Assembly (NCBI GenBank): GCA_023384105.1
Contig: JAHDXR010000002.1
Location: 1 to 64,000 of the forward strand
Direction of reading: 5' to 3'
Source of the DNA: Hyphomonadaceae bacterium
GTDB taxonomy: Bacteria > Pseudomonadota > Alphaproteobacteria > Caulobacterales > Aquidulcibacteraceae
Length of the DNA: 64,000 bases
The notes under the pieces are model-generated. The model was not told the DNA's origin. It saw only the letters and a list, made by a program, of their open reading frames with translations, and ran no database searches. The translations under genes and the position numbers were made by a program. Position 1 is the first letter of the stretch, and every line of letters starts with the position of its first letter. This document shows positions 36,670 through 64,000 of this stretch, one piece after another.

Positions 36670-36675
36670 GGATCG

Positions 36676-41425: not shown

Positions 41426-43621
41426 ATGATTCCGTCCAAGTTGCGCGACACCCGCGCCGCGCTCGGTGTGGTTGGCGCCCTCCTGGCGTCGACGATGTCG
41501 CCGGCGTGGGCGCAAACCGAAGACGAGAGCGGCGGCGGCCCCCTGGATGAGATCGTCGTCACTGCAACGAAGCGCGGCGTTGCGGAATCGGCTCAGGATG
41601 TGCCCGTTGCGATAACAGCTTTTAGCGCCGAGCAACTCGACCGCCTTCAGGTGCAGGACCTCTCCGACCTCACGACTGCGGCGCCGAACGTGTCGCTCGA
41701 TACGGTCGGCAATGCGCCCGGCTACGCGAATTTCACTATTCGAGGACTCGGCATCAACAGCTCCATTCCGTCGGTGGAGCCGGCGGTGGGCATGTTCGTC
41801 GATGGCGTTTATCTGGGAATGTCCGCCGGCGTTGTGATCAACATGTCCGACGTGGAGAGCGTCGAACTGCTGCGCGGGCCGCAGGGTCTTCTCTACGGCC
41901 GCAATACTACAGGCGGTGCGGTGCTCCTGCGAACGCGGAGGCCGGGACGGGAGTTTGCAGTCCGTGGACGCGCCGACATTTCCACGGGCCCCGAGTACGC
42001 GACCAGCCTGAGCATTGAAGGACCTCTTGCGGGTGAAGCGCTGCGCGCCAGCCTCGCCGGTTATTACGGCAAAGACGAGGGCTGGTTCACGAACGGATTC
42101 GATGGCGCCTCCTTTGGCGCCTCCGAAACGCGTTACCTGCGTCCGACGATCATTTGGGAGCCGTCGCCCGACATTGATCTCACGCTCATCCTGGAGCGCG
42201 GAGCGGTCGACGGCGACGGTCCGCCCGAGCAGAATTCCGGGGCGTTCTCGGGGTTCGACATCTCGATCAATTTCCCGGGCTACGTGCACATGGACTGGAC
42301 CTCGGCGACGCTGGAGGCCAATTGGCGTGTGGGCGTCGGCGATGGCGTGATCACGTCGGTGACCGGGTATCGGACGCTCGAACAGGGGAACGGGATCGAC
42401 GGAGACGCGCTCCCGACATCGGGCTTCCATGTGCAAACCGCGTTGGATCAGGAGCAGTTCAGCCAGGAATTGAGATATGCGGGTTCATTCGGCCCCTTGG
42501 ACGTCACTGCCGGTCTCTATTATTTCCAGCAGGACTATCTCTACATCGAAGAGCGGAATCTCGTCGGCGGCGCAATCATCTCCGCCTTCGGCGGCGACGT
42601 GGACCAGACAAGCTACGCCGCCTTCAGCCAGCTGACGTGGAATGTCACGCCGACCGTCGCGCTGATCGGCGGCCTGCGCTATTCCTGGGAGGAGAAGGAC
42701 GCGCGCGTCGCAACATTCGCGCCCTCCACCGCGGGATCGCGCTGCTCGCTCGCCGCCAGGACTTGCGATTTCAACTTTCCTGGACCGGGTTTTCCCGGAG
42801 TCTCCGGCGTCGAGAGCTGGGACTCTACGACCCCCATGCTGGGCTTCCAGTGGCGGCCAAACGACGACCTGATGGTCTATGGTCACTGGAGCCAAGGGGT
42901 GCGCAGCGGCGGCTACAATGTTCGGAGCACCAGTCTCACCTTTGCGCCCGGTCCCTACGATCCCGAGTATCAGGATGCGTACGAGCTGGGTATAAAATCG
43001 GATTGGTTCGACGGGCGATTGCGCGCCAACCTCGCGGTGTTCCAGAACCGGTTCGAGGGCATGCAGCGCGACATCAACCAAGCCGATCCATTGTCGGGAG
43101 TCGTGCAGCTCACGCGCAACACCGCCGACGCCACGATCAACGGCGCCGAGCTGGAGATTGCGTGGGCGCCGATCGACAATCTCGTGATCAACACCAATGT
43201 TGGGCATCTCGACGGCAGCTACGATCGCATTCTCTTCGACCTGGATGGGGGTGGGATCGGCCCCTCGGACTACGCGTTGCGCATTCCGCGGCTCGCCGAC
43301 TGGGCCTACAATATCGGCGCCACCTATACGCTGCCGTTACAGAACGGAATCGAATTGGATTGGCATGTGGACTACGGCTATCGCGACGCCGCAGCCTTCA
43401 CCGACAGCAATTCCTCGTTTCTCAGCAAGGTCAATCTTCTGAACGCGCATTTTGGCGCGACGTCGTCAGACGGAATGCGTGTGTCGCTCTATGGCAGAAA
43501 TCTCCTCGATGAGGACACCGAGGGCAGCGTCACGCCCCTGCCAGCTCTAGTGGGCGGAGGCGCGCTCCGCCCGCTGAACAAAGGGCGCGTCATAGGCGTT
43601 TCGTTCTCGTTCCGGCGTTAG
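41426..43621 (+). CDS. TonB-dependent receptor (module A)
   Basis: The 731-residue receptor has a signal peptide (ending MSPAWAQ), a plug beginning LDEIVVTATKRGVAESAQDVPVAITAFSAEQLDRLQ, NFTIRGLGINSSIPSVEPAVGMFVDGVYLGMSAG, and LLRGPQGLLYGRNTTGGAVLL. The barrel ends GVSFSFRR. The ATG at 41426 is chosen because GGGGAGAG precedes it; a second ATG at 41414 lies directly upstream. The next gene, a hydrolase-ligase fusion, begins 61 bases after its stop on the same strand, suggesting that what enters here is hydrolysed and activated. Confidence 0.92.
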   Translation: MIPSKLRDTRAALGVVGALLASTMSPAWAQTEDESGGGPLDEIVVTATKRGVAESAQDVPVAITAFSAEQLDRLQVQDLSDLTTAAPNVSLDTVGNAPGYANFTIRGLGINSSIPSVEPAVGMFVDGVYLGMSAGVVINMSDVESVELLRGPQGLLYGRNTTGGAVLLRTRRPGREFAVRGRADISTGPEYATSLSIEGPLAGEALRASLAGYYGKDEGWFTNGFDGASFGASETRYLRPTIIWEPSPDIDLTLILERGAVDGDGPPEQNSGAFSGFDISINFPGYVHMDWTSATLEANWRVGVGDGVITSVTGYRTLEQGNGIDGDALPTSGFHVQTALDQEQFSQELRYAGSFGPLDVTAGLYYFQQDYLYIEERNLVGGAIISAFGGDVDQTSYAAFSQLTWNVTPTVALIGGLRYSWEEKDARVATFAPSTAGSRCSLAARTCDFNFPGPGFPGVSGVESWDSTTPMLGFQWRPNDDLMVYGHWSQGVRSGGYNVRSTSLTFAPGPYDPEYQDAYELGIKSDWFDGRLRANLAVFQNRFEGMQRDINQADPLSGVVQLTRNTADATINGAELEIAWAPIDNLVINTNVGHLDGSYDRILFDLDGGGIGPSDYALRIPRLADWAYNIGATYTLPLQNGIELDWHVDYGYRDAAAFTDSNSSFLSKVNLLNAHFGATSSDGMRVSLYGRNLLDEDTEGSVTPLPALVGGGALRPLNKGRVIGVSFSFRR

Positions 43622-43681
43622 CGCCGGAACGGCTGCGTTTGGCGCCATCCGCTTCATTGGTGAAGGGCGTGGGAGGAGGTC

Positions 43682-46183
43682 ATGCGGCAGCAGGATCGAT
43701 CTGTCGCCACGAGGGAGATTGCGGTTGGAGGCATGACATTCACGACGTCATGCGCAGGTCCGGAAGACGGATTTCCGCTCCTGCTCCTTCATGGATTTCC
43801 GCATTCGCGCCATACCTGGGCGCGCTTGCTCCCGCGTCTCGCCGGGGCGGGCTTTCGCGCATACGCGCCCGATCAAAGGGGCTATTCGCCGGGCGCTCGC
43901 CCTCGGTCCGTTGAAGCTTATTCTTCCGATCAGCTCGTCAGCGACGTGTTTGGCATTGCTGACGCCGTCGGTGCCGAGCGTTTCGGCCTCGCGGGACACG
44001 ATTGGGGCGGCCAGATCGCATGGCTGGCCGCTACAAAGAGTCCCAAGCGCGTCTCGGCGCTCGCAGTATTGTCAAGACCGCATCCGGCGGCATTCGCGGC
44101 CGCGCTTGAATTAGATCCGCAACAAGCGGATCGCTCCGGTCACCATAAGAAGTTTCAGGACAAGGGCATGGCTGCTCGCCTGCTCGAGCGAGACGCTGAG
44201 CGCTTGCGGCTGCTGCTGCGTTTGGAAATGCCCGCGGTGATGTTCGATGACGCGGCTCTGAGCGGAGCGCGCAGTATGACGGAAGCACGCCTGGGTGAAG
44301 CGGATGTCGAAGCCTACGTGTCGACATTCGATTCTGAAGCGACATTGGACGCGGCGCTCAATTGGTACAGAGCGAGCTTCAAGGGAAAGTCCGTCTTGGC
44401 GGCCGGCGAGAACGAACCGACCGTCGTTCCGACGCTTTATGTGTGGGGCGATCGGGACGTGGCCGTCGGCGAAGAGGCGGCTTTGGCCACGCGCCGCTTC
44501 GTATCTGCGCCTTACAGGTTTGCGCATGTCGACGGCGCCGGACATTTTCTCTGCGAGCAGGCGGAGGGCCGCGTCGCCGAGGAGATCATCTCTCATTTTT
44601 CTTTGCATACCTGCGCAGAGCAGGGCGAGCCGCCAACGGCAGCGCAGAGTGGACCTCTTCTTCCCGGGATCATGGATCTTCATGGTCGGCATCGATCGAC
44701 CAAGGCGGCGCTGATCTCCGACGACGGTGCGCATTCATGGGGCGAATTGGCGCTCGCCATGCGCAAGGTCGCCGCGGGTTTGCATGCGCACGGCATTCGG
44801 CGCGGCGATGTTGTCGCCGTCGTCGCACCGAACAGGCTGGAGACCATAGAGACCTATCTGGGGGCCATGGCCGCCGGCGCGGTCGTCGCCCCGATCAATC
44901 TCGGGCTTCCCGATGACGCCATCGTCGCCCAAATCCGCGATTGCAGCGCTAAGGCGCTGATCGCCTCCAGTGACGAGGCCGAGCGACTTAGCCGGTCCGG
45001 CGTTGCGCGCGAATGTCCCGTTCGCGTTTCGATTGGCGGCGGTGTCGATAGCTGGACGGATTGGCGGGATTTCCTCGCCGGCGTACAGGGGGTGGCCCTG
45101 CACGCCGCATCAGGGGAGGATCGCTGTTCGATCCTTTACAGCTCGGGAACGACGGGCGTTCCCAAAGGCATCGTGCATACGCATGCGGCGCGCTTGGAGT
45201 TTGCGCGCAATTCGGCGCTCAGTCTCGAGTTTGGCCAGGACGCCCGCGTGATTTGCACGATCGGGCTATATTCAAATGCGATGTGGGGTGCGGCTCTGAG
45301 TGCGCTCATTGTGGGCGGCAGCGTCGTCATTGAACCGCGCTTCGATCTGGAGCGGTTCTTCGCTGCGGTCGAAGCGCGCCGCGTTACGCATGCGTTTCTC
45401 GTTCCAACTCAAATCGAAGCCATCGTGAAATTCACCGAGGAGACCGGACGCAAGCTGGAGTCCTTGCGCGTCGTGATTTCCGCCGGATCGGCGTTGCCTG
45501 CGAATGTCAAGGCGGCGCTTCTGGCAAACTTTCCGGTGCGCCTTATCGAAGCATATGGTTTGACCGAAGGGTTCGCCACCATCCTCTCGCACGAAGACGG
45601 CCTGCTCAGGCCGGCCTCAGTGGGCCGGCCAATGCTGGGGTCTTCAATTGCCATTATAGATGACGACGGTTGCACAGCGGGCTTCGGCGAGGCGGGCGAG
45701 ATCATAGGATCGTCAGCCTGGCTCATGCGGGAATATCTCAATCGTCCTGCCGAGACAGGCGAGGCGATTTTCGTCGATGGCGAGGGGCGGCGCTGGCTCA
45801 GAACCGGCGATATAGGCCGGCTCGATCAGGATGGATTTCTGCAGATACTGGACCGCAAGAAGGACATGATCCTTTCCGGCGGACAGAACATCTATCCGGC
45901 CGATCTCGAAGCGAAGCTTAGCGAGCACGAAAGCGTCGCCCATGCGTGCGTCATTGCAGCGCCGCATGAAAAGTGGGGGGAAACGCCCTTGGCGGTCGTC
46001 GTGCTGAAACCCGGCGCATACGTTTCTGAAGAAGAGCTGAAAGCATGGACGAATGAACGCGTTGCGAAATGGCAGCGCGTTTCAGAGGTGCGGTTCACAG
46101 ATGAGCTGCCGCGAAACGCCATGGGTAAAGTGCTCAAGCGCCATGTGCGCAACGAAATTCTGAAAATAGAATATGATACCTGA
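43682..46183 (+). CDS. Alpha/beta hydrolase fused to acyl-CoA ligase (bifunctional)
   Basis: The 833-residue protein joins two whole enzymes. Residues 1-310 are an epoxide-hydrolase/dehalogenase-like alpha/beta hydrolase: oxyanion HGFP (37-40), YAPDQRGYSPGARP, nucleophile Asp107 in GHDWGG, acid Asp259 in WGDRD and His288 in GAGHFL. Residues about 330-833 are an adenylate-forming ligase: SSGTTGVPKG (487-496), YGLTEG, RTGDIGRLDQDGF, DRKKDMILSGGQNIYPAD, and GKVLKRHVRNE with the catalytic Lys. The ATG at 43682 has a good ribosome binding site (GGAGGAGG). No stop or frameshift separates the parts. A cytoplasmic enzyme that hydrolyses a compound (ester, lactone, epoxide or halo-acid) and loads the acid onto CoA is inferred; no signal peptide is present. 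Confidence 0.88.
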   Translation: MRQQDRSVATREIAVGGMTFTTSCAGPEDGFPLLLLHGFPHSRHTWARLLPRLAGAGFRAYAPDQRGYSPGARPRSVEAYSSDQLVSDVFGIADAVGAERFGLAGHDWGGQIAWLAATKSPKRVSALAVLSRPHPAAFAAALELDPQQADRSGHHKKFQDKGMAARLLERDAERLRLLLRLEMPAVMFDDAALSGARSMTEARLGEADVEAYVSTFDSEATLDAALNWYRASFKGKSVLAAGENEPTVVPTLYVWGDRDVAVGEEAALATRRFVSAPYRFAHVDGAGHFLCEQAEGRVAEEIISHFSLHTCAEQGEPPTAAQSGPLLPGIMDLHGRHRSTKAALISDDGAHSWGELALAMRKVAAGLHAHGIRRGDVVAVVAPNRLETIETYLGAMAAGAVVAPINLGLPDDAIVAQIRDCSAKALIASSDEAERLSRSGVARECPVRVSIGGGVDSWTDWRDFLAGVQGVALHAASGEDRCSILYSSGTTGVPKGIVHTHAARLEFARNSALSLEFGQDARVICTIGLYSNAMWGAALSALIVGGSVVIEPRFDLERFFAAVEARRVTHAFLVPTQIEAIVKFTEETGRKLESLRVVISAGSALPANVKAALLANFPVRLIEAYGLTEGFATILSHEDGLLRPASVGRPMLGSSIAIIDDDGCTAGFGEAGEIIGSSAWLMREYLNRPAETGEAIFVDGEGRRWLRTGDIGRLDQDGFLQILDRKKDMILSGGQNIYPADLEAKLSEHESVAHACVIAAPHEKWGETPLAVVVLKPGAYVSEEELKAWTNERVAKWQRVSEVRFTDELPRNAMGKVLKRHVRNEILKIEYDT

Positions 46184-46222
46184 TATCCTACACCGCCGCC
46201 TTGATCCTGGAGGGTGATCGTT

Positions 46223-47515
46223 TCAAGCTTGTCTGTGGCGGTGAGTTTGGAGAACAAGGCAAAGGGCCGCAGCACCCAGCAGGGCGGGCGGAGCGCCTGC
46301 GACCAGCGCGGCGACAGCGCCGACGCCGCCGATTGCTAGTGCGCCGCCAACGAGCGCCGGGCCGACCGCGAGCCCAAGCTTTTCGCTGGCAGTCCAAAGC
46401 CCGGTAAAGGTTGCTTCCAGGGCGCGATTGTGTTCGCGGCGTTCATTGTGGGCCAGATGCGCGAGCATGGCGAAGGGGAGGACCTGCAGGCCGGCGAAGG
46501 CGAAGCCGCCGGCAGCGAAAATGAAAAGCAAGCTTGTCCAAGGCGTATGGAAGGCAACCGCTGCGCCGATCGCCAGCGTGACGATGCAGAAGAGCGCGAT
46601 GGCGCTCATCAACGCGCGTTTTTCGCCGAAGCGCTTGCCGAGGAAAGTCCACAAGGGCGGCGTCACGACGGCGCTTCCGAGCAATGCGGCCATCGCCACG
46701 CTGATATCGCTTTCCGGACGTTGCAGCGCGCGCGCCACCAGATAAGGCATCGACGCGGTCAAGACGCCGACCGAAGTGATCATCAGGAAATAGGCCCCAG
46801 CCAAGAATACGAAGCCGCGCGCCTGCAGCGCGTCCCTTGCGCCGCGCCAGAAGGACGGACGTGTCCGTGGGGCCGATGTCGCGCGATCTGTTGGCGCGAC
46901 AGCCAGCGGCGTCGCCATGGCGGCAAAGCAGAAGAGCGCCACGACCCACGACATCATTGCGTATCCCGCGCGCCCGCCGCCGAAGGCGGATACCAGCGCT
47001 GGCGCCGCGGCCGCGCCAACGAACACGCCGGCCATGCCCGCGACCATGCGCCATGACACCAGCGACGAGCGCGCCGCGTTGGTGTGTGCGATCTCGGCGG
47101 GAAGCGCGATGTAGGGGACGGCATAGAGCGAGTAGAGCGTGGCTAGCAGAAAATAGCTTGCGCCCACCCAGGCGATAAGCGCCGGCTCACTCAAGGGCGG
47201 CGCAGAAAAGAGCGCGGCGAAACCGGCGGCGACACCGGTCGCGCCGATCAGCAGGAAGGGCGCGCGCCGGCCCCATGGCGAGCGCAGATTGTCAGACCAG
47301 GCCCCGACAAAGGGATCCCACGCGATCGACCACGTCTTCGGCAGCAACACAAGCGCACTGGCGATGGCCGCAGGCAGGGCGAGCGTCTCCGTACAATAAT
47401 AGAGCAGCAGCACGGTGGGGATGGTGGAGAAGAGACCGGTGCCCAGGGAACCGACGGCGTAAAGGCCGATCCGCGTCGGATGAAGAGGAGGGGGCGCGGC
47501 TAAGGCGTCGGTCAT
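46223..47515 (-). CDS. MFS transporter, GPH-like sugar/organic-anion symporter family (paralogue 1)
   Basis: The 430-residue carrier has about 12 predicted helices with IGLYAVGSLGTGLFSTIPTVLLLYYCTETL and the MFS loop DPFVGAWSDNLRSPWGRRAPFL, which are typical of MFS_2/GPH carriers that move glycosides and related solutes. It closely resembles the carrier at 61907-63196 (for example SSLVSWRMV-AGMAGVFVGAAAAPALVSAFGGGR versus SSLVSWRMV-MAMAGVFIGAAAAPSLVSAFGGGR). The ATG at 47515 is preferred over a TTG at 47536. The double TetR gene sits upstream on the same strand, 31 bases away. Confidence 0.85.
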   Translation of the reverse strand: MTDALAAPPPLHPTRIGLYAVGSLGTGLFSTIPTVLLLYYCTETLALPAAIASALVLLPKTWSIAWDPFVGAWSDNLRSPWGRRAPFLLIGATGVAAGFAALFSAPPLSEPALIAWVGASYFLLATLYSLYAVPYIALPAEIAHTNAARSSLVSWRMVAGMAGVFVGAAAAPALVSAFGGGRAGYAMMSWVVALFCFAAMATPLAVAPTDRATSAPRTRPSFWRGARDALQARGFVFLAGAYFLMITSVGVLTASMPYLVARALQRPESDISVAMAALLGSAVVTPPLWTFLGKRFGEKRALMSAIALFCIVTLAIGAAVAFHTPWTSLLFIFAAGGFAFAGLQVLPFAMLAHLAHNERREHNRALEATFTGLWTASEKLGLAVGPALVGGALAIGGVGAVAALVAGAPPALLGAAALCLVLQTHRHRQA

Positions 47516-47529
47516 GGCCGCGTTACTTA

Positions 47530-47548
47530 TACTCAATACTCACTTTCT
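47530..47548 (-). promoter_or_regulatory. Candidate operator AGAAAGTGAG-N3-TGAGTA upstream of MFS carrier
   Basis: The minus-strand copy (plus TACTCAATACTCACTTTCT at 47530-47548) matches at 16 of 19 positions the element at 49128-49146. The two flanks of the regulator gene carry the same element. A role as the binding site of the neighbouring tandem-TetR protein is inferred. Confidence 0.55.
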
Positions 47549-49043
47549 ACAATGGCGTCGGCCTTACCATATCGCGCAGGAAGCTGTGACGGTCGAGAAT
47601 TTCCGCCGGCGGCTGCTCCAGGAAGAGCGCCCGCAGCCAGATCGCCGCCAGCAGTTCGGCTTGCTCGTGTCCCGGCGCCGGAGACGCGCCGGACGGCAGC
47701 GCGCCGAGATCGTAGGAGAAGCGCTCGATCATCGCCAGCATGGCGTAGCCGATGAGGATCAGCGCCGCGCGCGCCGAGGGCTGAGCGCCAAGATGGAAGC
47801 CCACAAGATCTGCGAGCGCACGCGCCCAGACGCGGCGGAAGGCGCCGAACATATCGGTGATTTCGATGTCGTCCTGTTCAAGGCGGTAGAGCGCACGCAA
47901 AACGCCTGGATTGGCGCGGTACTCCTCCAGGAAAGCGGCGATGGCGGTGCGCAAATCCTCGAAGCGGGATGCGGCGGGGCGTGCGCTGCTTTCCATCAGG
48001 CGCGCGTGCATCGTTTCCAGCTGTTCGCGCAGAAGGGTCGCGACAAGTTCGCGCTTCTCGCCGAAATAATGGTAGATGCCGCCGCGCGTGACGGCGCCCT
48101 CTTCCTCGATGTCGCGGATGCGCAATTCGTCGTAGGAGAGTAGGTTGAGCAGGCGCAGCGCCGTCGATTTGAGCAAGTCGAACGAGGCGGTGGAATCGGA
48201 GCGTTTGGGCTGTCTTTTGTGCGGGACGCCCGGGGTTTCGACGGGCTGAATTTCAGGACGAGGCCCCGTCGCGGCGGCGACTTGGCGCGGCAGGGACGAG
48301 GCCGTGACTCCGACGTCGGACATGGTCAGCATGCGCACGCGCAATTGCGCCAGGAAGGTCGAAACATCGACCCGGGCGGCTCGTTCCAGCGCCGCGGTTT
48401 CGTCGCGCCCAGTGCAATATCGGAAGAGGAAATTGTCGGCCATGGCCGTGACCGCGTGCGCCAGCGGCAGGATCGCTTCAGGTTGTGGCGGCTTCGGCGC
48501 GTCGAGGGCGACAATGGCGCGCTCGGCGTGCATGCGGTCATAGCTTCGCGTTTGATCCTGAAAGAATTTCGTGAACGGAGTTTCGCCGGCGTCGAGTGCA
48601 TAATAGCAATCGAGCACGCCCGGGGATTCGGTAAACAACTGAATGAGGTTCCGATGCGAGGCGATCTGAAAGTCGAACAGGCTCGATCCGGACGCGGGCA
48701 TGCGCGACTTGTGTCGCCCCACGATCTCGTCGAGTGCGGCGAGGACCGCCTCGGTCTTATCGGTGAAGTAGCGATAGAATAGGCTTATGGGCGCGCCGGC
48801 TTCATCGGCGATGTTGGCGATCGATAGGTCGCGGTAGCCGAACCGGTTCAGCGCGCGGGCGGTTGCGTCGAGTAATTGCTGCCGGCGCTTGCGCCCCTTG
48901 GGCGTCAGCGGCGCGGGCTTGGCGAGGGCTTGCTTCGAGCGCGGCCGCTTTTGTTGCGGGGGTGCTCCGGCAGCGCCCTTGGGGGCGAGGCTGTCGTCTT
49001 GCGGGCGCTGGCGCGGCGGCCGCTTCGAGGCTTGTTTGGTCAT
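47547..49043 (-). CDS. Tandem TetR-type regulator (two TetR units in one protein)
   Basis: The 498-residue protein has two TetR-like DNA-binding HTH regions. The first is at residues about 50-100 (KGRKRRQQLLDATARALNRF, IADEAGAPISLFYRYFTDKTEAV). The second is at about 288-335 (LLKSTALRLLNLLSYDELRIRDIEEEGAVTRGGIYHYFGEKREL). Each is followed by a helical ligand domain, so the product is about twice the usual length of a TetR protein (about 200 residues). The first 45 residues are a Lys/Arg/Pro-rich tail. It is divergent from the TonB receptor at 49203 and upstream of an MFS carrier. The ATG at 49043 removes a non-homologous N-terminal extension. Confidence 0.85.
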   Translation of the reverse strand: MTKQASKRPPRQRPQDDSLAPKGAAGAPPQQKRPRSKQALAKPAPLTPKGRKRRQQLLDATARALNRFGYRDLSIANIADEAGAPISLFYRYFTDKTEAVLAALDEIVGRHKSRMPASGSSLFDFQIASHRNLIQLFTESPGVLDCYYALDAGETPFTKFFQDQTRSYDRMHAERAIVALDAPKPPQPEAILPLAHAVTAMADNFLFRYCTGRDETAALERAARVDVSTFLAQLRVRMLTMSDVGVTASSLPRQVAAATGPRPEIQPVETPGVPHKRQPKRSDSTASFDLLKSTALRLLNLLSYDELRIRDIEEEGAVTRGGIYHYFGEKRELVATLLREQLETMHARLMESSARPAASRFEDLRTAIAAFLEEYRANPGVLRALYRLEQDDIEITDMFGAFRRVWARALADLVGFHLGAQPSARAALILIGYAMLAMIERFSYDLGALPSGASPAPGHEQAELLAAIWLRALFLEQPPAEILDRHSFLRDMVRPTPL

Positions 49044-49127
49044 CTTGAGTGTCTTGGCGCGCTCGCGCGAGTTTGAACGCAAGACTAAGGTTTGGGCGCG
49101 GCCGGGCCAAGCGCTCTTGCAAAAAAG

Positions 49128-49146
49128 AGAAAGTGAGGTATGAGTA
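49128..49146 (+). promoter_or_regulatory. Candidate operator AGAAAGTGAG-N3-TGAGTA upstream of TonB receptor
   Basis: The plus-strand element (AGAAAGTGAG, GTA, TGAGTA) lies in the 160-base divergent region between the tandem TetR gene and the TonB receptor. Its matching copy at 47530-47548 is on the far side of the regulator gene. Position suggests control of the receptor promoter and autoregulation. Confidence 0.55.
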
Positions 49147-49202
49147 GATGAAATAGAATTACGGCGGCGCTGGCCGACCGCAAACGAGGGAGGGTTGTGA
49201 CT

Positions 49203-51374: not shown

Positions 51375-51394
51375 CGCGATGCGGGAGTTTCGCT

Positions 51395-56156: not shown

Positions 56157-56176
56157 CTTCGGCCTCAGCCGGAAAT

Positions 56177-56189: not shown

Positions 56190-56306
56190 TCGCCCGTGCG
56201 CGGCGACGAAGCGTTCGCGTCCCCAACACAGTTCTTACGGTAGCCGAAGCTGTCAAATTCGCTTTCTGAATTCCCATTGACAAACGCATCGCTCCCCGGG
56301 ATGAAC

Positions 56307-56326
56307 AATTGAGGTTAACCTCAATT
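56307..56326. promoter_or_regulatory. Perfect 20-base palindrome upstream of module C TonB receptor
   Basis: AATTGAGGTTAACCTCAATT lies 23 bases before the ATG at 56349, just downstream of a TTGACA-like -35 (56277-56282). TGAGG-N4-CCTCA is repeated at 61096-61109 between the MaoC and TetR genes. Its position over the promoter fits repression by that TetR protein. Confidence 0.7.
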
Positions 56327-56348
56327 ATAAATCCGGGGAGGGATTCTC

Positions 56349-58532
56349 ATGCGCGCGCTAGGTTTGCTCGTTGGAAGCGTTATGACTCTGAGCGCGGGGG
56401 GAGCTTTGGCTCAGGAGGCCCAGTCCCAGGGCGAACTCGAGGAGATCATCGTCACCGCCCGCAAAACTGCAGAGGACATCCAAGACACTCCCCTTTCGGT
56501 GTCGGCCTACACTGCAGCGGCCATGGAGCGTCTCGGCATAGCCGATCTCGGCGACGTGGCGCAGCGGACGCCGGGCATGCACTTCGGGGACTTCGGGGAC
56601 ATCAAGCTGTCGCCCACGTCGCTGCGCGGCATTATCGGCGATGCGACCTCCGCGGGCGCCGACCCGGCGGTCGGCTATTATGTCGACGAGGTGTTTGTCG
56701 GCCAGGGGGCGGGCGCCAATGTCGATTTGTTCGACATTGCGCGGGTCGAAGTGTTGCGCGGCCCTCAAGGCGCGCTATTCGGCCGCAACACGATCGGCGG
56801 CGTCATCAGCATTACGACGGAGCGCCCCAGCGATACGTTCGAGGCCTCCGCATTGGCTGAGCTGGGCGACTACGATCATCGCCGTTTCGCGGCTTCCATA
56901 TCCGGCCCGCTCGGCGAAAGCGTCTCCGCCAAACTTTCTTTCAGCGGACGCGAGCGTGGAGGCATATCGGAAAATCTCTGGCTTGATCGCGACGTGAACA
57001 CGCTAGGCTCATGGACCGCGCGCGGGCAGGTCTTGTTCGAGCTCAACAGCAATACCGAGCTCACATTGACGGCGGATTACAATGTCGTCGATCAAGAACC
57101 GCTTATGTACGAGACAATTCGGTACAACGATGCTGCGATCTTGCCGCAGGTGCTCGATCTCTACGGTCTGCCGCGCAATACCAGCGTCAGCGACCGCAAC
57201 GTCTATTCCGAAAACGTCAACCAGGAGGAGCTGGACGCGCTGGGCTTCGCCGCCACGTTCCGCACGCAAATCGGCGCCGTCGGCGTCACCAACGTGCTCT
57301 CCTATCGCACGCACGACTATTACAGCCGCATCGACACCGACCGTTCGCCGCTGTCGATGCTGTATGACGGCGATCCAGAGGAGGTTTCGCGCTGGTCCGA
57401 GGAATTGCGGCTGAACTGGTCGACCGGCCCGGTCGATTGGATCGCGGGCGTCTATTATTTTCAGCAGACGACGGACAACCAGGCCTTTGTCGAGGTCGGC
57501 TCCGATCTTGCCGATCTGATCGGCGATCCGAGCCTTGCCGGCATGCTCGCCGGCTCGGTCGCAACGCTCGACGCCACCAGCACCGCACTGTTCGCCAGCG
57601 CCAATTGGACTGTCAACGATCGCCTGGATATCGCCCTCGGCGGCCGCTACACGCGCGACGAAAAGGAGATATCCTACCAGCAGTCCGACCCCCTCGGCCT
57701 GCTGGGCGGGGACGCCGACATCGACGCTTCCGACGATTGGAGCGAGTTCACGCCACAGGCGAACGTCCGCTATCGCTTCACGGGAGACGTGATGGGCTAC
57801 GCTACGATCAGCCGCGGCTTCAAGAGCGGGGGGTTCAACGACGCGTTGGGCAGCGCCACCGGCATCGCTTTCGACACCGAGACGCTATGGAATTATGAGA
57901 TCGGGTTGAAGAGCGAACTGTTCGATCGGCGCGTGCGCCTGAACATCGCGCTCTTCTACATGGATTGGAGTTCGATCCAGGTGCTGGAGGACAACCCGGC
58001 GACGCCCAGCATCTATGACCCGATCACCACCAACGCCGGCGCGGCGCACAGTCAGGGCGTGGAGATCGAGCTCGATGCGGCGCCGACCGAAAACCTCCGT
58101 CTGGGCGCCAGCCTTTCGCTGCTGGAAGCGGAATTCGACGAGGGCGCGCTGCCGAACGGCCAGCCGCTGACGCACATTCCGTTCGCGCCGGAATACACCG
58201 CCTCGATCCATGCGCAATATACCTGGCCGGTGGGCGCCAATGGCGAGCTGTCGCTGCTCGGCGAATATATCGCCCGCGGTCAATCCTATCTCGGCTACGA
58301 CCCGATGCCCGACAATCGCGTCGATCCCTACGGCCTCGCCAATATGCGACTTTCCTACAGGCACGCTTCGGAGGCAAACGCCTGGAGCGTTGCGCTTTGG
58401 GGCCGCAACCTCGCCGACGAAACCTATCAGGTGCGCATGTTCGACCTCTACGACCTCGATTTCGTGGGCCAGCGCTTCGCCATCCTGGGCGAGCCGCGCA
58501 CGTTCGGCGTCGAGTTGCGTTACGATTATTGA
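56349..58532 (+). CDS. TonB-dependent receptor (module C)
   Basis: The 727-residue receptor begins with a signal peptide (MRALGLLVGSVMTLSAGGALAQ), then the plug ELEEIIVTARKTAEDIQDTPLSVSAYTAAAMERLGI, SLRGIIGDATSAGADPAVGYYVDEVFVGQ and VLRGPQGALFGRNTIGGVISI; the C-terminus is GVELRYDY. It is the largest barrel class here. The following hydrolase starts 12 bases after the stop, so the two are probably one operon. The palindrome at 56307-56326 precedes it. Confidence 0.92.
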   Translation: MRALGLLVGSVMTLSAGGALAQEAQSQGELEEIIVTARKTAEDIQDTPLSVSAYTAAAMERLGIADLGDVAQRTPGMHFGDFGDIKLSPTSLRGIIGDATSAGADPAVGYYVDEVFVGQGAGANVDLFDIARVEVLRGPQGALFGRNTIGGVISITTERPSDTFEASALAELGDYDHRRFAASISGPLGESVSAKLSFSGRERGGISENLWLDRDVNTLGSWTARGQVLFELNSNTELTLTADYNVVDQEPLMYETIRYNDAAILPQVLDLYGLPRNTSVSDRNVYSENVNQEELDALGFAATFRTQIGAVGVTNVLSYRTHDYYSRIDTDRSPLSMLYDGDPEEVSRWSEELRLNWSTGPVDWIAGVYYFQQTTDNQAFVEVGSDLADLIGDPSLAGMLAGSVATLDATSTALFASANWTVNDRLDIALGGRYTRDEKEISYQQSDPLGLLGGDADIDASDDWSEFTPQANVRYRFTGDVMGYATISRGFKSGGFNDALGSATGIAFDTETLWNYEIGLKSELFDRRVRLNIALFYMDWSSIQVLEDNPATPSIYDPITTNAGAAHSQGVEIELDAAPTENLRLGASLSLLEAEFDEGALPNGQPLTHIPFAPEYTASIHAQYTWPVGANGELSLLGEYIARGQSYLGYDPMPDNRVDPYGLANMRLSYRHASEANAWSVALWGRNLADETYQVRMFDLYDLDFVGQRFAILGEPRTFGVELRYDY

Positions 58533-58543
58533 GCGAGGCTCCG

Positions 58544-60406
58544 ATGAAGACCGTCGCAAGCGCGTTTTGCTGTCTGCTTTTGGCGTCGCTCGCCGGTTGC
58601 GCCAGCGCACCGCCGCCCGACGCGCCCGCCGTCGAACGGCCGCAGGGCTGGAGCGACCGCTCATATTATCTGCCCATGCGCGACGGCGTGCGTCTGGCGG
58701 TGAGTCTCTATTTTCCCGACGGCGCGCCTCCGCGCGCGCGCGCGCCGGCCATCCTCATTCAAACACGCTATGGCCGCGCCAGCGAAGCGATGCGGCTGGA
58801 CGAGGCGGCGAGCGCCGAGACTTGGCGCGCCGACGGGGAGTCGGACGTCGATCGCTGGCGCGGGCGCGGCTATGTCGTGGCCGTGGCGGACGTGCGCGGC
58901 TCGACCTCATCCTATGGACTGCGCAGGTTCGAGATCGGCCCCGACGAGCGGGCCGACATGGACGAACTGATTGCGCATTTCGCCAGCCAGCCTTGGTCGG
59001 ACGGGCGCGTCATCGCCTATGGCTTCTCTTATATGGCCGACACCGCAGACGTCGCCACGAGCCGCCCCGCGCCGGCTCTTGTGGCGGCGATCCCGCGCGA
59101 GACGGATTTCGACGTGTATCTGCACGTGTTCTTTCCCGGCGGCTTGAGAAACGATTTCATGCTCAACGCCTGGGGCGGGTTCACGCGCGAGATCGACGAG
59201 GGCCGTTCCGGACAGGACGACGGCACTGACTGCCAACGGCGCGTCGAGGACTGCCGGGCGCTGTTTCCGCTTCTGCAGCCGGTGGACGACGACCACGATC
59301 TGTCGCAGCTGCGCACGGCGCTGCGCAACCGCGACCGCTGGAGCCCGGAAGATTTCGCGGACGCGGAATTCCGCGACGATCTCGGCGCCAACGGTTATCG
59401 TATGTTCGATTCCTCGCCGGCGGCGTATCTCGATGGCATCCGCCGCGAAGCAAAGCCGGTGCAATATTGGGGATCGTGGCTGGATGGAGGCACGGCTGAA
59501 GCCGCGCTGGCGCGCTTCCGTTCGGCGCCCGAAGCGCCCATGGAAGTGTGGATCACGGCCAACAATCACGGCCACAATATCGGCGCCGATCCGTTCTTTC
59601 CCGACCGCCGCGCGCCCGCGCCCAGCCGCGACGCGCAATTCAACTCGGTGGCGGACTTTTCGGACCGTGTGCTGCGCGGCGAGGAGATCGGGCGTGAGAT
59701 CAATTATTATGTGATGGGTGCGGGAGAGTTCCGGCGCACGCGCGTGTGGCCACCCGAAGGCGTGCGCGAGACGCAGTTCTTCCTGGCCGCGAACAACGCG
59801 CTCGCCGCGCGCTCGCCCGCGTACGGGCGCGTGGACTACGCCGTCGACTTCACCGCCGAGACGGGGGCGAACACGCGCTGGTCCACCCAGTTCGGGCCGC
59901 CGCCCGCCTATCCGGATCGGCGCGAGGCGGATCGCAAGCTGATCGTGTTCGACTCATCGCCGATGACGCAGGACATGGAATTGTCGGGTGCGCCGATCGT
60001 CGATCTCTATCTCGCCGCGCGCTCGCGCGATCCGGCGGTGATCGCGTATCTTGAGGATGTCGCACCCGACGGGCGCGTGACCTATCTCGCCGAAGGCATG
60101 CTGCGCGCGGTCAATCGCGCGCCCGCCGATCCGGCGGATTTGCCCTATGACCAGGGCGAGGCCGCGCACACTTATGCGCGCGCCGACGCCTTGCCGGTGA
60201 CGCCCGGGGAAGTGATGCGCCTGCGCTTTGCGCTGTTTCCCACGGCGGCGCTGGTGCGGCGGGGCCATCGCTTGCGCCTGGCGATCGCCGGGGCGGACGC
60301 GGCGGTGTTCCGGCGCTATTCCGAGGGTGGAGAGGATGTCTTCACCATCGGCTATGGCGGCGCCGAAGCCAGCGCGCTGATCGTCCCGATGCGCCCCTGG
60401 CGCTGA
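58544..60406 (+). CDS. CocE/NonD-type hydrolase lipoprotein
   Basis: The 620-residue protein has the signal MKTVASAFCCLLLASLAGCAS with lipobox LAGC and Cys19. The CocE fold follows: GYVVAVADVRGSTSSYG, nucleophile Ser162 in GFSYMAD, and a C-terminal jelly roll ending AVFRRYSEGGEDVFTIGYGG. It differs from the usual GxSYxG, having ADT where G is common, so activity needs confirming. It probably hydrolyses an ester in the periplasm or outer-membrane face for the receptor encoded just upstream. Confidence 0.88.
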   Translation: MKTVASAFCCLLLASLAGCASAPPPDAPAVERPQGWSDRSYYLPMRDGVRLAVSLYFPDGAPPRARAPAILIQTRYGRASEAMRLDEAASAETWRADGESDVDRWRGRGYVVAVADVRGSTSSYGLRRFEIGPDERADMDELIAHFASQPWSDGRVIAYGFSYMADTADVATSRPAPALVAAIPRETDFDVYLHVFFPGGLRNDFMLNAWGGFTREIDEGRSGQDDGTDCQRRVEDCRALFPLLQPVDDDHDLSQLRTALRNRDRWSPEDFADAEFRDDLGANGYRMFDSSPAAYLDGIRREAKPVQYWGSWLDGGTAEAALARFRSAPEAPMEVWITANNHGHNIGADPFFPDRRAPAPSRDAQFNSVADFSDRVLRGEEIGREINYYVMGAGEFRRTRVWPPEGVRETQFFLAANNALAARSPAYGRVDYAVDFTAETGANTRWSTQFGPPPAYPDRREADRKLIVFDSSPMTQDMELSGAPIVDLYLAARSRDPAVIAYLEDVAPDGRVTYLAEGMLRAVNRAPADPADLPYDQGEAAHTYARADALPVTPGEVMRLRFALFPTAALVRRGHRLRLAIAGADAAVFRRYSEGGEDVFTIGYGGAEASALIVPMRPWR

Positions 60407-60491
60407 AACTCGGGTCGCCGGCGCGCGCCCGCGCTCGTCGGCATGACGCGACCGCACCTGACAGCCGCAGCGTTGGTGCGATCGGGCGCAT

Positions 60492-60571
60492 GCCGGCGAG
60501 AACGCCGGCGGTCCGGAAGCGAGCGCGCTCACAAACGCGGGTCCGAAGACCCGCGTGCCGGAGGAGCCGGC
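60492..60571. terminator. Three hairpins between convergent genes
   Basis: GCCGGCG-AGAA-CGCCGGC (60492-60509), ACGCGGGTC-CGAA-GACCCGCGT (60535-60556) and GCCGG-AGGAG-CCGGC (60557-60571) fill the 183-base gap between the hydrolase and the MaoC gene. The CGAA loop and 9-bp stem form the strongest of them. They can act on either strand; no T run follows. Confidence 0.5.
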
Positions 60572-60589
60572 GGTGCGTTCACGGGCGGC

Positions 60590-61075
60590 TCAGGCGCCGG
60601 GCGGGACCCACATGGTCAGCCATTCGGCGATCAGCGCCGGGCGGTCCGAGCCCTCGACTTCGATTGTGACGTGGACGCGCGAGACGAAGCGGTTCTTCTC
60701 GTCGCGCTCGCGCGCGAGCAGGACGAAGCGCCCGCGCACCCGGGCGTTGACCGGAACCGGCGCGACAAGGCGCAGCCGGTCGAACCCGTAGTTCAAATAA
60801 TAGCCGTGTTCGGCGGGCTCGCGCGCGGAATCGGTGCGCATGGCGTCGTGCAGCAGGTTGGTGAGCAACGACATGGTGAGAAAGCCGAAGGCCACGGTGT
60901 GCCCGAACGGCCCCTTCGTGCGCGCCCATTCCGGATCGATGTGCATCGGATCGGCGTCGAGCGTCACCTCGCCGAAACCGTCGATCATCCGCTGGGTGAT
61001 CTCCACCCAATGGGAGACGCCGATTTCCGATCCGGGCTTCAATTCGCCGAAGGGGTCGCGTAATGCAAGGTCCAC
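60590..61075 (-). CDS. MaoC family dehydratase (R-specific enoyl-CoA hydratase type)
   Basis: The 161-residue protein has the hot-dog hydratase 2 signature: VTLDADPMHIDPEWA with Asp40 and His45 in the D-x-D/N-P-x-H motif, and FGHTVAFGFLTMSLL. It hydrates enoyl-CoA in the R direction or dehydrates the reverse. The start is GTG at 61075, and the TetR gene begins 38 bases away, divergent, so one operator (61096-61109) can serve both. Confidence 0.85.
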   Translation of the reverse strand: MDLALRDPFGELKPGSEIGVSHWVEITQRMIDGFGEVTLDADPMHIDPEWARTKGPFGHTVAFGFLTMSLLTNLLHDAMRTDSAREPAEHGYYLNYGFDRLRLVAPVPVNARVRGRFVLLARERDEKNRFVSRVHVTIEVEGSDRPALIAEWLTMWVPPGA

Positions 61076-61095
61076 GTATTCGCTCCTGTGTAAAA

Positions 61096-61109
61096 TGAGG
61101 TTTTCCTCA
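61096..61109. promoter_or_regulatory. TGAGG-TTTT-CCTCA operator between MaoC and TetR genes
   Basis: The 14-base inverted repeat lies 4 bases before the TetR ATG and 21 bases before the MaoC GTG, and shares its arms and the right flank (CCTCAATTAT) with the palindrome at 56307-56326. Autorepression by the TetR protein and joint control of MaoC is inferred. Confidence 0.65.
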
Positions 61110-61112
61110 ATT

Positions 61113-61901
61113 ATGGCTTCGCGTCAACCCATTGCAAACGTTTTACCGGCGCTCTCGTCGGAGGATGTGTCCTACGTGCGGCGGCTGGGTCGCCGGCTGA
61201 AGGAGAGTCCGCCGAAGCTCAAAAGCGATCGGACGCGCATGCGGATACGCTTGGCGTGCGCGCAAGTTCTGGAAGAGCGCGGCTTCCACGCGGCGCGCGT
61301 TATCGACATCACCAACGCCGCGGGCCTCGCCGAGGGGTCGTTCTACGTTTATTTCCGCGATAAGACCGATGCGGCGACCGATGTGCTGTCGTCGATGCTG
61401 GATCATTTCGGCGACATCCTGGGGCGGCCGCGCGAAAGCGACACGCCTTTCAACGCGCTGCGGGACAGCAATCGCCGTTGGATCGCCTATTGCCGGCAGA
61501 ATCCCGGTCTGATGCGTTGCTTGCTGCAGCTCGGCGACGAGGTGCCGGAATTCGCCAAGCTCACGCACCGCGTTAACCGCACATGGTACGAGCGCGTGGC
61601 GCGATCGGTGTTGCGGCGTTTCCCGCGCAAGGGGCTGGCGCATGGCGAGGTTCTATTCGCCGTCTATGCGCTAGGTTCGATGATGGATGAAATCGCGCGA
61701 AAGCTGTTCGTCTATCCCGATCCGTTTTTTCTCGAAATGCTCAAAGAGCTCGCCCTGGACGACGAGGGGCTCGCTGACGCCGCGAGCGTGATATGGTTCA
61801 AGATTCTTTATCCAGGAGTGAGGACGCCGACCAAGCTTAGCGGCCTTGCCGAAAAGCTGATGGCGTGGGATGGCCGCAGCCCAAACCGCAAAACGGATTG
61901 A
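61113..61901 (+). CDS. TetR-family transcriptional regulator
   Basis: The 262-residue protein has the TetR HTH at residues about 43-88 (RMRIRLACAQVLEERGFHAARVIDITNAAGLAEGSFYVYFRDKTDAATDV) after a 40-residue N-terminal extension, then a ligand-binding helical domain ending SGLAEKLMAWDGR. It is divergent from MaoC and its predicted site recurs at the module C TonB promoter, so it is likely the module C repressor. The ATG at 61113 is the nearest to the HTH; the frame is open further upstream as an antisense shadow of MaoC. Confidence 0.9.
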   Translation: MASRQPIANVLPALSSEDVSYVRRLGRRLKESPPKLKSDRTRMRIRLACAQVLEERGFHAARVIDITNAAGLAEGSFYVYFRDKTDAATDVLSSMLDHFGDILGRPRESDTPFNALRDSNRRWIAYCRQNPGLMRCLLQLGDEVPEFAKLTHRVNRTWYERVARSVLRRFPRKGLAHGEVLFAVYALGSMMDEIARKLFVYPDPFFLEMLKELALDDEGLADAASVIWFKILYPGVRTPTKLSGLAEKLMAWDGRSPNRKTD

Positions 61902-61906
61902 GCGCT

Positions 61907-63196
61907 TCACGATCTGGCGAGAAATACCGCCGCTAATGTCAGCAATGACGCCGGTCCGACCGCGACAAGCGGTCCGATTGCGGCGTCGCCGCCGAGTGCG
62001 AGCGCGGATGCGACGAGCGCCGGCCCCAGTGCGAGCCCGAGTTTTTCGCTCGCCGTCCAAAGCCCGGTGAACGTGGCTTCGAGCGCCGCGCCTGTATGGG
62101 CGCGCTCACGGTGCGCAAGATGAGCGAGCATGGAAAAAGGCAGCACCGACAAGCCGGCGAACGCGACGCCGGCCGTGGCGAAGACGCAAAGCAGCGCCGT
62201 CCACGGCAGCTGCGCCATGATCGCGGCCGCCGTCGCGGCGGCGCTCACGGCGAAGAACGCGATTGCGGCGAACAAGCTGGCTTTTTCGCCGAAGCGGTTG
62301 CCCAGCCAGCTCCAAAGCGGCGGCGTCGCGACCGAGCCGCCAATCAACGCCGCAAGGGCCACGCCAATATCGCTTTCAGGCCGCATCAGCACCTTGGAGA
62401 CGAGGTAAGGCATTGACGCCGTGAGCACGCCGACGGCGGTGATTTGAAGCAGATAAGAACCGGCCAGCGCCGCGAATCCCGGCGTGCCTAGCGCGTTGCG
62501 GGTAGCGCGCCAAAGCGGCGGCGCCTTGGCGGCGCGCTCGGGCTGGGCGTTGCGTCTCGGCGCGACGAACAAGGGCGCCAGCATGGCCAGAAAGCATGCC
62601 GCGCCGACGACCAACGCCATCCCGGCATAGCCGTTGCGGCCGCCTCCGAATGCCGAAACGAGCGACGGCGCCGCGGCTGCGCCGATGAACACGCCCGCCA
62701 TCGCCATGACCATGCGCCATGACACGAGCGAGGAACGTTCGCTGTCCGCGTGCGCCATTTCGGCCGGCAGCGCGATGTAGGGCACAGCGTAGATCGAAAA
62801 AATTGTAGCGAGGAAGAAATAGGCGAGGCCGACCCACCAGACGATCGCGGCTGTCCCCCAGGCGGGCGCTGAAAACAGCATGACAAAGCCTGCGGCGACG
62901 CCGATTGCACCGACGAACAAGAAGGGGATGCGCCGTCCCCACGGCGAGCGCGCGCGATCCGACCAGGCGCCGACGAGCGGATCCCACACGATTGCCCAGG
63001 TCTTCGGCAGAAATACGAGTGCGCCGGCAAGCGCGGCCGGGATAAGCAGAGTCTCCGTGCAATAATAGAGCAACAATACGGTCGGCACGGTTGAGAACAC
63101 GCCGACGCCTAGAGAACCTAGCGCATACGCCCCTATCGTCAGTGTCGAGTGCGAACGGGCGTTATCCGTTACCTGTGAAGACGCCTGTTCGGCCAT
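61907..63196 (-). CDS. MFS transporter, GPH-like family (paralogue 2)
   Basis: The 429-residue, 12-helix carrier is close to the carrier at 46223-47515. It has IGAYALGSLGVGVFSTVPTVLLLYYCTETL, DPLVGAWSDRARSPWGRRIPFL and SSLVSWRMVMAMAGVFIGAAAAPSLVSAFGGGR. It follows the acyl-CoA ligase by 15 bases on the same strand, so that ligase and this carrier are probably one operon whose promoter lies beyond the window. It should move the hydrolysed acid or its precursor over the inner membrane. Confidence 0.85.
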   Translation of the reverse strand: MAEQASSQVTDNARSHSTLTIGAYALGSLGVGVFSTVPTVLLLYYCTETLLIPAALAGALVFLPKTWAIVWDPLVGAWSDRARSPWGRRIPFLFVGAIGVAAGFVMLFSAPAWGTAAIVWWVGLAYFFLATIFSIYAVPYIALPAEMAHADSERSSLVSWRMVMAMAGVFIGAAAAPSLVSAFGGGRNGYAGMALVVGAACFLAMLAPLFVAPRRNAQPERAAKAPPLWRATRNALGTPGFAALAGSYLLQITAVGVLTASMPYLVSKVLMRPESDIGVALAALIGGSVATPPLWSWLGNRFGEKASLFAAIAFFAVSAAATAAAIMAQLPWTALLCVFATAGVAFAGLSVLPFSMLAHLAHRERAHTGAALEATFTGLWTASEKLGLALGPALVASALALGGDAAIGPLVAVGPASLLTLAAVFLARS

Positions 63197-63211
63197 GGAG
63201 CTTCCTGTCTG

Positions 63212-64000
63212 TCAGTGCGGCGCCGGTTCTGCGTATTCATGCGCGAGTTTGGCGAGCGCGGATTTGTCTATCTTGCCGATCGGCAGCAGCGGCATCCGCT
63301 CAAGCACCACGAACGATTTTGGAATTTTATAGTTGGCGAGGCGATTGCGGCAGTGCGCCTCAAGCGCTTCTTTCGTAAGAGCGCCGCGCAGCGTGACGAA
63401 GGCGATTCCGACCTCCTGCCAGAGCGCGTCGGGGATGCTCACGACCGCGGCTTGATCGACAAGAGCATGCGCTTCGAGCGCAGATTCGATCTCGCGCGGG
63501 TAAACATTATAGCCGCCCGATTTGAACATCTCCTTGATCCGCCCGACGATCCGATAGCGGCCGTCGCTGCGGCGGATCGCCGTATCTCCGGTGCGCATCC
63601 AACCTTCAGCGTCGATCGTTTCGGCGGTCGCACGAGGATTTCGCCAATAGCCGAGCATATTGTACTTGGAGCGTGTCTGGATTTCGCCGGGCGTGTCGTT
63701 TGACTCGATGACGACCCCGTCGGCGCCGACCAGGCGCACCTCAACGCCCCTGGCCGGCAATCCGACCGTGTTGGCGAGAATGTCGCGATCCCGCGTCGGC
63801 GTTGTGACCGTCATCGCGCACGTGGATTCCGTCATGCTGTAATTGGTTGCAAGCGGGAGACCAAACATGAGCAACCGATCGAGCGTTTCGGCGGGAATGG
63901 CTGCGCCTTCCCACACGATCAGTTGGACCGCCGACAGGTCGAACGAAGCAAAGTCCGGCAACGCCAGCTGCATCTGAAATACGCTTGGAACGCTTGCCCA
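63212..64000 (-). CDS. Acyl-CoA ligase, 5' end beyond the window (module C)
   Basis: The visible 262 residues are the C-terminal half of an adenylate-forming ligase: NYSMTESTCA, MRTGDTAIRRSDGRYRIVGRIKE, KSGGYNVYPREIE and LPIGKIDKSALAKLAHEYA with the catalytic Lys. The frame is open beyond the ATG at 63973 to the edge (…SVPSVFQMQLA), so the P-loop is missing only because the window ends. It precedes the MFS carrier and completes module C. Confidence 0.88.
   Translation of the reverse strand, partial: WASVPSVFQMQLALPDFASFDLSAVQLIVWEGAAIPAETLDRLLMFGLPLATNYSMTESTCAMTVTTPTRDRDILANTVGLPARGVEVRLVGADGVVIESNDTPGEIQTRSKYNMLGYWRNPRATAETIDAEGWMRTGDTAIRRSDGRYRIVGRIKEMFKSGGYNVYPREIESALEAHALVDQAAVVSIPDALWQEVGIAFVTLRGALTKEALEAHCRNRLANYKIPKSFVVLERMPLLPIGKIDKSALAKLAHEYAEPAPH

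Follow-up and report, generated by a model that had tools for sequence, protein, structure and literature searches.

A tRNA-Val-associated accessory island with probably separately inherited TonB-receptor-headed modules in a Hyphomonadaceae bacterium

Gene content of the locus

The stretch of DNA analysed here, called the window throughout, comprises 64,000 nucleotides, the first 64 kb of the 382-kb contig JAHDXR010000002.1 of a Hyphomonadaceae bacterium (assembly GCA_023384105.1; a genome of 3.67 Mb, 99.8% complete). The Der protein of this genome has 86% identity to that of 'Hyphomonadaceae bacterium SJ474', 84% to that of G001, a genome of the same genus, and 66–67% to those of Phenylobacterium/Caulobacteraceae, which puts it near the Caulobacterales. 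Directly after a transfer RNA gene (tRNA-Val), it enters an accessory island of ~49 kb (~20.5–69.8 kb of the contig), the right part of which carries three gene modules, A, B and C, each headed by the gene of a TonB-dependent receptor. Genes were called by a simple codon-based script, and their start positions are approximate; the caller is weak in loci of low G+C (GC) content, where tblastn was used alongside. The export start of the module B hydrolase CocE_B, the lipobox of its module C counterpart CocE_C and several gene families in relatives, marked as such below, were assigned by eye. Other genomes, contigs and loci are given by G, C and L numbers, respectively.

A preliminary description of the window, made from its letters and open reading frames, had listed the genes of three uptake–hydrolysis–activation modules. 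Start-codon details aside, all genes that it named are open frames matching their families. Two points are added to its list: the final ligase gene extends beyond the window, as far as 64810, and a regulator with two TetR_N stretches, located between modules A and B, had been left out. The island and its modules are arranged as follows.

20390..20464, + strand: tRNA-Val (CAC), left edge of the island
20465..64000 in the window, continuing to ~69.7–69.8 kb of the contig: accessory island, delimited by an empty site in three relatives and a GC shift
41426..43621, + strand: module A TonB-dependent receptor
43682..46183, + strand: module A fusion protein (833 residues), epoxide-hydrolase-like domain (~1–310) and AMP-binding coenzyme A (CoA) ligase (~325–830)
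46223..47515, − strand: MFS_A, MFS_2/GPH-type carrier
47547..49043, − strand: 498-residue regulator, a single chain containing two TetR_N stretches
49203..51374, + strand: module B TonB-dependent receptor
51395 (or 51428)..52768, + strand: module B class-III aminotransferase
52768..54327, + strand: module B acyl-CoA ligase, FadD8-like
54324..56156, + strand: module B CocE/NonD hydrolase (CocE_B), apparently exported (export start by eye); TIGR00976, 263.9 bits
56349..58532, + strand: module C TonB-dependent receptor
58544..60406, + strand: module C CocE/NonD lipoprotein hydrolase (CocE_C; lipobox by eye); TIGR00976, 259.5 bits
60590..61075, − strand: module C MaoC-like hydratase (nearest solved chain, RV0130)
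61113 (or 61239)..61901, + strand: module C TetR regulator
61907..63196, − strand: MFS_C, module C MFS_2/GPH-type carrier
63212..64000 in the window, start at contig position 64810, − strand: module C ligase

An accessory island next to tRNA-Val

The island is defined by its composition and by the absence of its DNA from close relatives. The GC content is 0.66–0.72 before 20 kb, on the tRNA-Val side, versus 0.61–0.67 inside the island. In three genomes of the same genus (G018, G021 and G026) the site is empty: genes g15–g19 and the same tRNA-Val are followed, after 0.2–0.4 kb, by genes g55–g57, and in G018 and G026 g14 is also kept before the tRNA. In the present genome g55–g57 begin at 69935, and the stretch from ~20.5 to ~69.8 kb is therefore extra DNA here.

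The DNA upstream of glmU was compared in 20 relatives (19 plus G006). The empty site is found in three of them, and a TonB receptor gene lies within the stretch read in six (G006, G005, G019, G020, G023 and G027). Next to g55, G006 carries a set of receptor, aminotransferase, ligase, amino-acid permease and CocE genes. Upstream of g55 in G019 (L163) there is a receptor–MFS–COesterase–ligase set, in which the same slots are filled with a hydrolase of another family; a set of this kind, judged by eye, occupies the position in G023 (L167). Other receptor genes are found there in G005, G020 and G027, and a large molybdenum-hydroxylase-like gene (family by eye) in G002. The other relatives have different genes at the site or end in short contigs. 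A TetR-like gene, also judged by eye, accompanies the COesterase sets of L163 and L167.

Two small features of the left edge may be recorded here. A T-arm base pair of tRNA-Val is G-C in the present genome and A-T in G018, G021 and G026, and a 15-base partial copy of the tRNA end, matching the form of the relatives, is located at 20613, ~150 bp after tRNA-Val. Together they are perhaps the trace of an older insertion.

Module C is a conserved six-gene unit

Both CocE proteins of the island score about fourfold above the cut-off of TIGR00976 (66.3 bits) and are, on family assignment, CocE/NonD hydrolases with a predicted hydrolytic function. Ser162, Asp314 and His342 (CocE_C numbering) are invariant in four aligned CocE sequences and align with cocaine esterase, the nearest solved member of the family; we take these residues to be the Ser-Asp-His catalytic triad. 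What distinguishes the present pair from the family at large is that both appear to be exported, with a twin-arginine-like or a lipoprotein start (by eye), and that both are parts of receptor–carrier–ligase modules. A model of CocE_C computed from a two-row alignment had a mean predicted local distance difference test (pLDDT) score of 37 and was discarded.

A profile built from four sequences of this CocE subfamily was searched against 398 genomes of the order at an E-value of 1e-60 and found the subfamily in 16. In nine of these (the present genome, G006, G023, G124, G192, G153, G364, G297 and G329) all six types of module C genes, encoding receptor, CocE, TetR, MaoC, carrier and ligase, share one neighbourhood. 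Identities to module C in the other eight genomes are 38–63% and exceed 50% in 35 of 48 best-hit values, with carriers being the lowest. In G006 and G023 the ligase is ~14 kb away from the rest, and the CocE gene of G023 is split in two frames. Module C is thus a conserved six-gene unit. The remaining seven genomes include two with partial diverged sets (G170, G233), one with a B-type set (G305) and one with a B-like set in which no aminotransferase was seen (G214); G254, G304 and G360 yielded no such set, though a piece of a receptor is present in G254. Outside this sample, the Novosphingobium plasmid THN1 encodes a CocE and a receptor with 54% and 47% identity, respectively, separated by transposase-like genes (by eye), a hint of transfer.

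A predicted operator of module C

Exact gapped palindromes were enumerated in 27 promoters. A TGAG-type element recurred at several module C promoters, and a score built from it found further sites that were absent from the palindrome listing. The operator is an 18-bp palindrome, TGAGG-N4-CCTCA, with three sites at module C.

56308..56325: operator site 1, a perfect palindrome, before the receptor gene
61094..61111: operator site 2, in the divergent MaoC/TetR promoter
Contig 64854–64871: operator site 3, between the ligase gene and the gene of an indolepyruvate ferredoxin oxidoreductase
Contig 64903–68337: single-chain indolepyruvate ferredoxin oxidoreductase (1535 bits vs a cut-off of 816)

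Three of the four operator sites in the whole genome are located at module C promoters; a reversed control pattern has one site in all. The pattern occurs 1–9 times in each of 12 genomes scanned, including those without module C, and single sites therefore mean little. In the eight further genomes with module C, each of 18 module promoters examined scores at least 11 of 14; among the other promoters of the same loci 28 of 125 do so and 97 score 10 or less. Of these 28 promoters, 13 stand before module C genes or genes divergent from them, 10 belong to an extended gene set in G006 and G023, and five belong to neither group. In G153 both sites score only 11, which is below the cut-off of 12 used in the site scan. 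The case for the operator rests on the near-perfect sites, and the TetR regulator probably represses all three module C promoters through this predicted element.

Modules A and B lack the operator in their promoters, where scores are background-like. B-type loci L117, L199, L207 and L121 have no site scoring at least 12, and L205 has two, one of them inside a gene. Co-regulation of all three modules, which the preliminary description had anticipated, thus finds no counterpart in the scan.

In two relatives the operator extends to further genes. Seven sites scoring at least 12 are present in 40 kb of G006, all intergenic (0.6 expected from shuffles) and six of them within the cluster; G023 has six such sites, again all intergenic. 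Among the genes behind the G006 sites are those of S58 and M81 peptidases, DUF1611, a biotin-dependent carboxylase, an arginase-family protein divergent from the ligase, and a beta-lactamase-fold hydrolase divergent from a receptor. The S58 gene is also confirmed behind a site in G023, where the others were assigned by eye. The same stretch of G006 contains genes for an M55 D-aminopeptidase, a TRAP carrier and an enolase-superfamily protein. DUF1611 corresponds to DgcN. One report presents dgcN as a key gene in the racemisation of D-glutamate (PMC12363236).

Module B

The receptor, aminotransferase, ligase and CocE genes of module B run on one strand, with the ligase gene overlapping both neighbours by a few bases, and on this arrangement module B is predicted to be a four-gene operon. 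The same order is found in a distant genome, G305, where the four proteins are 58, 60, 52 and 43% identical and the receptor gene is cut by the contig start. Genes for beta-keto acid cleavage enzymes are present near the B-like modules of G124 and G214. In the present genome (G000), contig C13 (L121, 1308–3419) holds the two ends of a G006-type module, namely a TetR gene with the start of a receptor gene and then the end of a CocE gene, but lacks the ~7 kb expected in between. Provided that the contig is correctly assembled, this appears to be the relic of a fourth module.

A hydrolase–ligase fusion in module A

Module A combines a receptor with a two-domain enzyme. The best solved match of its first half is the epoxide hydrolase 5ng7 (7e-39, residues 30–305). 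The nucleophile Asp of the HDWGG motif (GHDWGGQIAW) is present in all 12 aligned sequences, as is the cap-domain Tyr of the WYRA motif. The first cap Tyr of classical epoxide hydrolases is not at the place where it would be expected (a K stands before FQ). By its sequence the hydrolase half belongs to the Asp-nucleophile epoxide-hydrolase/dehalogenase family, and a role as an esterase or amidase was rejected on this assignment. For the ligase half, the closest matches are general ligases of the fatty-acyl/4-coumarate type. No signal sequence is visible by eye, and the fusion seems to be cytoplasmic. In a structural model of the fusion (m73919df2d6d3; mean pLDDT 76) the hydrolase part is confident and residues 315–356, before the ligase part, are of low confidence; the 50 Foldseek matches listed for this model are all of the AMP-ligase type, with none on the hydrolase half.

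The hydrolase is encoded by a separate open frame in 11 of 11 homologs. The full fusion was found in no other genome among the matches listed for 101 genomes (including the present one), among the best 80 of 128 loci, or in 385 genomes of the class. One row of the class-wide search (G497) extends to fusion residue 367 through two stops. The halves are adjacent as separate genes in two cases, both on plasmids (222 of 226 locus records, with the window and three loci of the same genome excluded). The single chain may be an assembly error.

The nearest described architecture is OleBC of olefin biosynthesis, in which the beta-lactone decarboxylase OleB and OleC are likewise a hydrolase-type enzyme and an AMP-dependent ligase joined in one chain. 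OleB has a fold with an Asp nucleophile, and OleC is of the AMP-dependent type. Natural oleBC fusions, mostly from Actinobacteria, have been described (PMC7064751). No OleA thiolase or OleD reductase is found among the neighbours scanned (37.5–68.3 kb), a TonB receptor adjoins the fusion, and the nearest relatives of the ligase half are those given above. Membership in the OleBC group was rejected on the gene neighbours.

Two further genes are possibly part of module A.

37570..39099, − strand: AMP-binding ligase
39259..40188, + strand: nitronate monooxygenase family protein; in L042, a homolog of it (36% identity) and one of the fusion hydrolase occur in a single cluster

Relations among the modules

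The genome has 51 TonB receptor matches, 50 of them above the family cut-off. When 51 receptors are placed at random, three fall within 17.2 kb with P = 0.67 and five within 28.2 kb with P = 0.026, the latter being mildly unusual. The spacing of the three module receptors is ordinary, and receptor clustering was rejected as evidence in itself: proximity alone is weak evidence, and conserved neighbourhoods are strong evidence.

The three module receptors are 31–32% identical and the three ligases 29–31%, no closer to each other than to others of the island; CocE_B and CocE_C are 37% identical. The modules are therefore not copies of one another. A recent duplication holds true only for the carriers, MFS_A and MFS_C, which are sisters (65% identity, support 97/98), and was rejected for receptors, ligases and CocE. 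In a tree, CocE_C groups with the CocE of the B-like module of G006 (96/98) and not with that of the G006 copy of module C. This G006 module is a mosaic, in which a B-type receptor is combined with the nearest relative of CocE_C, and it occurs in a genome that also has module C; in G124, module C and a B-like set are located on separate contigs. The sister carriers, the grouping of CocE and the mosaic sets indicate that parts have been exchanged between modules. The slots of receptor, hydrolase, carrier and ligase also recur with other hydrolases, namely the COesterase of G019 and the beta-lactamase-fold hydrolase on contig C28 of G006.

A 15-bp motif, AGTGAG-N3-TGAGTA, has exactly two mismatch-free sites in the window; the pattern was defined from these same two sites and is accordingly weak evidence.

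47530..47544, − strand: AGTGAG-N3-TGAGTA, upstream of MFS_A
49132..49146, + strand: AGTGAG-N3-TGAGTA, in the module B promoter

The modules do not travel together. G006 and G023 have module C but lack the module A fusion, and their best match to CocE_B is no closer than 37%; G305 has module B but no C-type CocE at 1e-60, and G192, G153, G364, G297 and G329 have no second CocE of the subfamily at 1e-60 (a search with the CocE profile). No operator common to modules A, B and C was found.

These results bear on the preliminary description in different ways. Its division into three modules agrees with the conserved cluster of module C and the ordered homolog of module B in G305; its view of them as one integrated ester or amide system does not hold. 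That the modules perform the same steps in different forms gains some substance for B and C, between which parts have been exchanged; hydrolytic release of an acid in module A, where the hydrolase domain is epoxide-hydrolase-like, is not supported. Conservation of the whole set in relatives, which it had proposed to look for, was rejected on the gene content of G006, G023 and G305 and on the restriction of the module A fusion to the present genome among those searched.

Interpretation

The peptidase, DUF1611 and beta-keto acid cleavage partners of these modules are those expected for acylated amino acids or for peptides with D- or beta-amino acids. Judging from these gene families, modules B and C most likely act on acylated amino acids or unusual peptides. 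Among the candidates named in the preliminary description, acyl amino acids fit best, and no sign of plant esters or terpenoids was seen.

From gene content we infer an order of enzymes and their cellular places. The receptor of module C would import the substrate to the periplasm, where the CocE lipoprotein would cleave it; the GPH-type carrier would move the acid product over the inner membrane, the ligase would form its CoA thioester and the MaoC protein would hydrate the enoyl form. TetR, bound to TGAGG-N4-CCTCA, would repress all three promoters. Module B would be a separate operon for a substrate that leaves an amine, and module A would pair its receptor with the epoxide-hydrolase/CoA-ligase fusion.

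The best explanation of the locus, with a probability of roughly 0.65, is an accessory island after tRNA-Val that holds at least three separately inherited modules headed by TonB receptors, with module C under TetR control and with acylated amino acids or unusual peptides as the substrates of B and C. Several observations weigh against it. The island shares with tRNA-associated genomic islands the tRNA edge, the GC shift and the empty site in relatives, but differs from them in that no integrase family was found among the island genes scanned (all except g53 and g54) and no direct repeat of at least 13 bases of the tRNA end at its right edge. A scan of the window that allows three mismatches to the operator gives three hits, a number reached by 14 of 100 shuffles, that is, chance level. 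Genes of the peptidase or D-amino-acid type accompany module C in only four of the other eight full-set genomes (Pfam supports those of G006 and a single gene in each of G153 and G023, while G192 and the remaining genes of G023 were judged by eye), and the present island showed no gene of this type. CocE proteins are known mainly for acting on esters, and the nearest solved chains are those of cocaine esterase, so that the substrates may be esters.

The modules could instead be unrelated and have come together fortuitously at a hot spot of insertion, without sharing any class of substrate. This is conceivable, if somewhat doubtful: the g55 site carries differing cargo in G006, G019, G023, G005, G020, G027 and G002, and the left half of the island encodes a tartrate-type pathway, yet B and C both have a CocE slot, sister carriers lie nearby, and the mosaic module of G006 joins a B-type receptor to the nearest CocE_C relative. 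A single integrated system, with A, B and C each serving different members of one ester or amide family, would account for their presence in one island, the sister carriers, the 15-bp motif common to the MFS_A and module B promoters and the joint occurrence of C with B-like sets in G124 and G006. It is nevertheless improbable given the genomes in which C occurs without the A fusion and a close CocE_B (G006, G023), those with a single subfamily CocE at 1e-60 (G192, G153, G364, G297, G329) and G305 with B alone, the lack of a common operator, the other reaction class of the module A hydrolase, and the low identities of receptors and ligases. A role of the CocE modules in disarming foreign peptide antibiotics rather than in feeding appears very improbable. 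Weak matches mark alpha-amino acid ester hydrolases as distant relatives of CocE, and the serine-hydrolase and peptidase genes of G006 are under the same operator, but the combination of TonB receptor, inner-membrane carrier, CoA ligase and MaoC fits the use of a carbon source.

Such bacteria have many TonB receptors (~50 in this genome), most of which, to our knowledge, lack an assigned substrate. Module C, as a conserved unit controlled by a predicted operator, offers a defined regulon and a short list of candidate substrates, testable in one strain. If the peptide reading of B and C holds, it would reveal how lipopeptides or other nonribosomal peptides re-enter the carbon cycle. The fusion of module A would be a compact two-step enzyme. 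More tentatively, and in our view rather unlikely, B- and C-type modules may represent an undescribed mosaic class of Caulobacterales-like bacteria, 'unusual-peptide utilisation loci', composed of a TonB receptor, an exported CocE peptidase/esterase, a carrier, a class-III aminotransferase, a CoA ligase and a MaoC or beta-keto acid cleavage enzyme, which would dismantle acylated peptides with beta- and D-amino acids and swap parts at tRNA hot spots. No description of modules combining a TonB receptor, CocE and a ligase was found in the titles and abstract beginnings of the open-licence literature.

Other genes of the island and its surroundings

The left part of the island is occupied by genes of another kind.

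20879..30063, − strand (one LysR gene inside on +): tartrate dehydrogenase, glycerate kinase, 2-hydroxyacid dehydrogenase, AtuA/DUF4387 pair, GntR, CitMHS carrier

The tartrate dehydrogenase scores 575 bits with TIGR02089 (cut-off 470.4), and the CitMHS carrier is also over its cut-off. With a tartrate-type pathway in this part, the island is not dedicated to a single substrate. At 26054–26344 there is an Aldolase_II fragment of ~91–96 residues, 60–62% identical to the start of ~250-residue proteins in clusters of Sphingobium and Niveispirillum, in which the fusion hydrolase has a homolog alongside a receptor and a ligase.

An Rfam scan of the window and of L001 gave tRNA only. Beyond the window, contig C23 carries at ~74.5–86.2 kb (L001, L002) genes for a portal, a head/protease protein, a large terminase and an integrase, and this region adjoins a tRNA-Gln at 86426. 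Four of its proteins were scanned, none of which is a tail protein, and the region could be a phage satellite or a prophage remnant.

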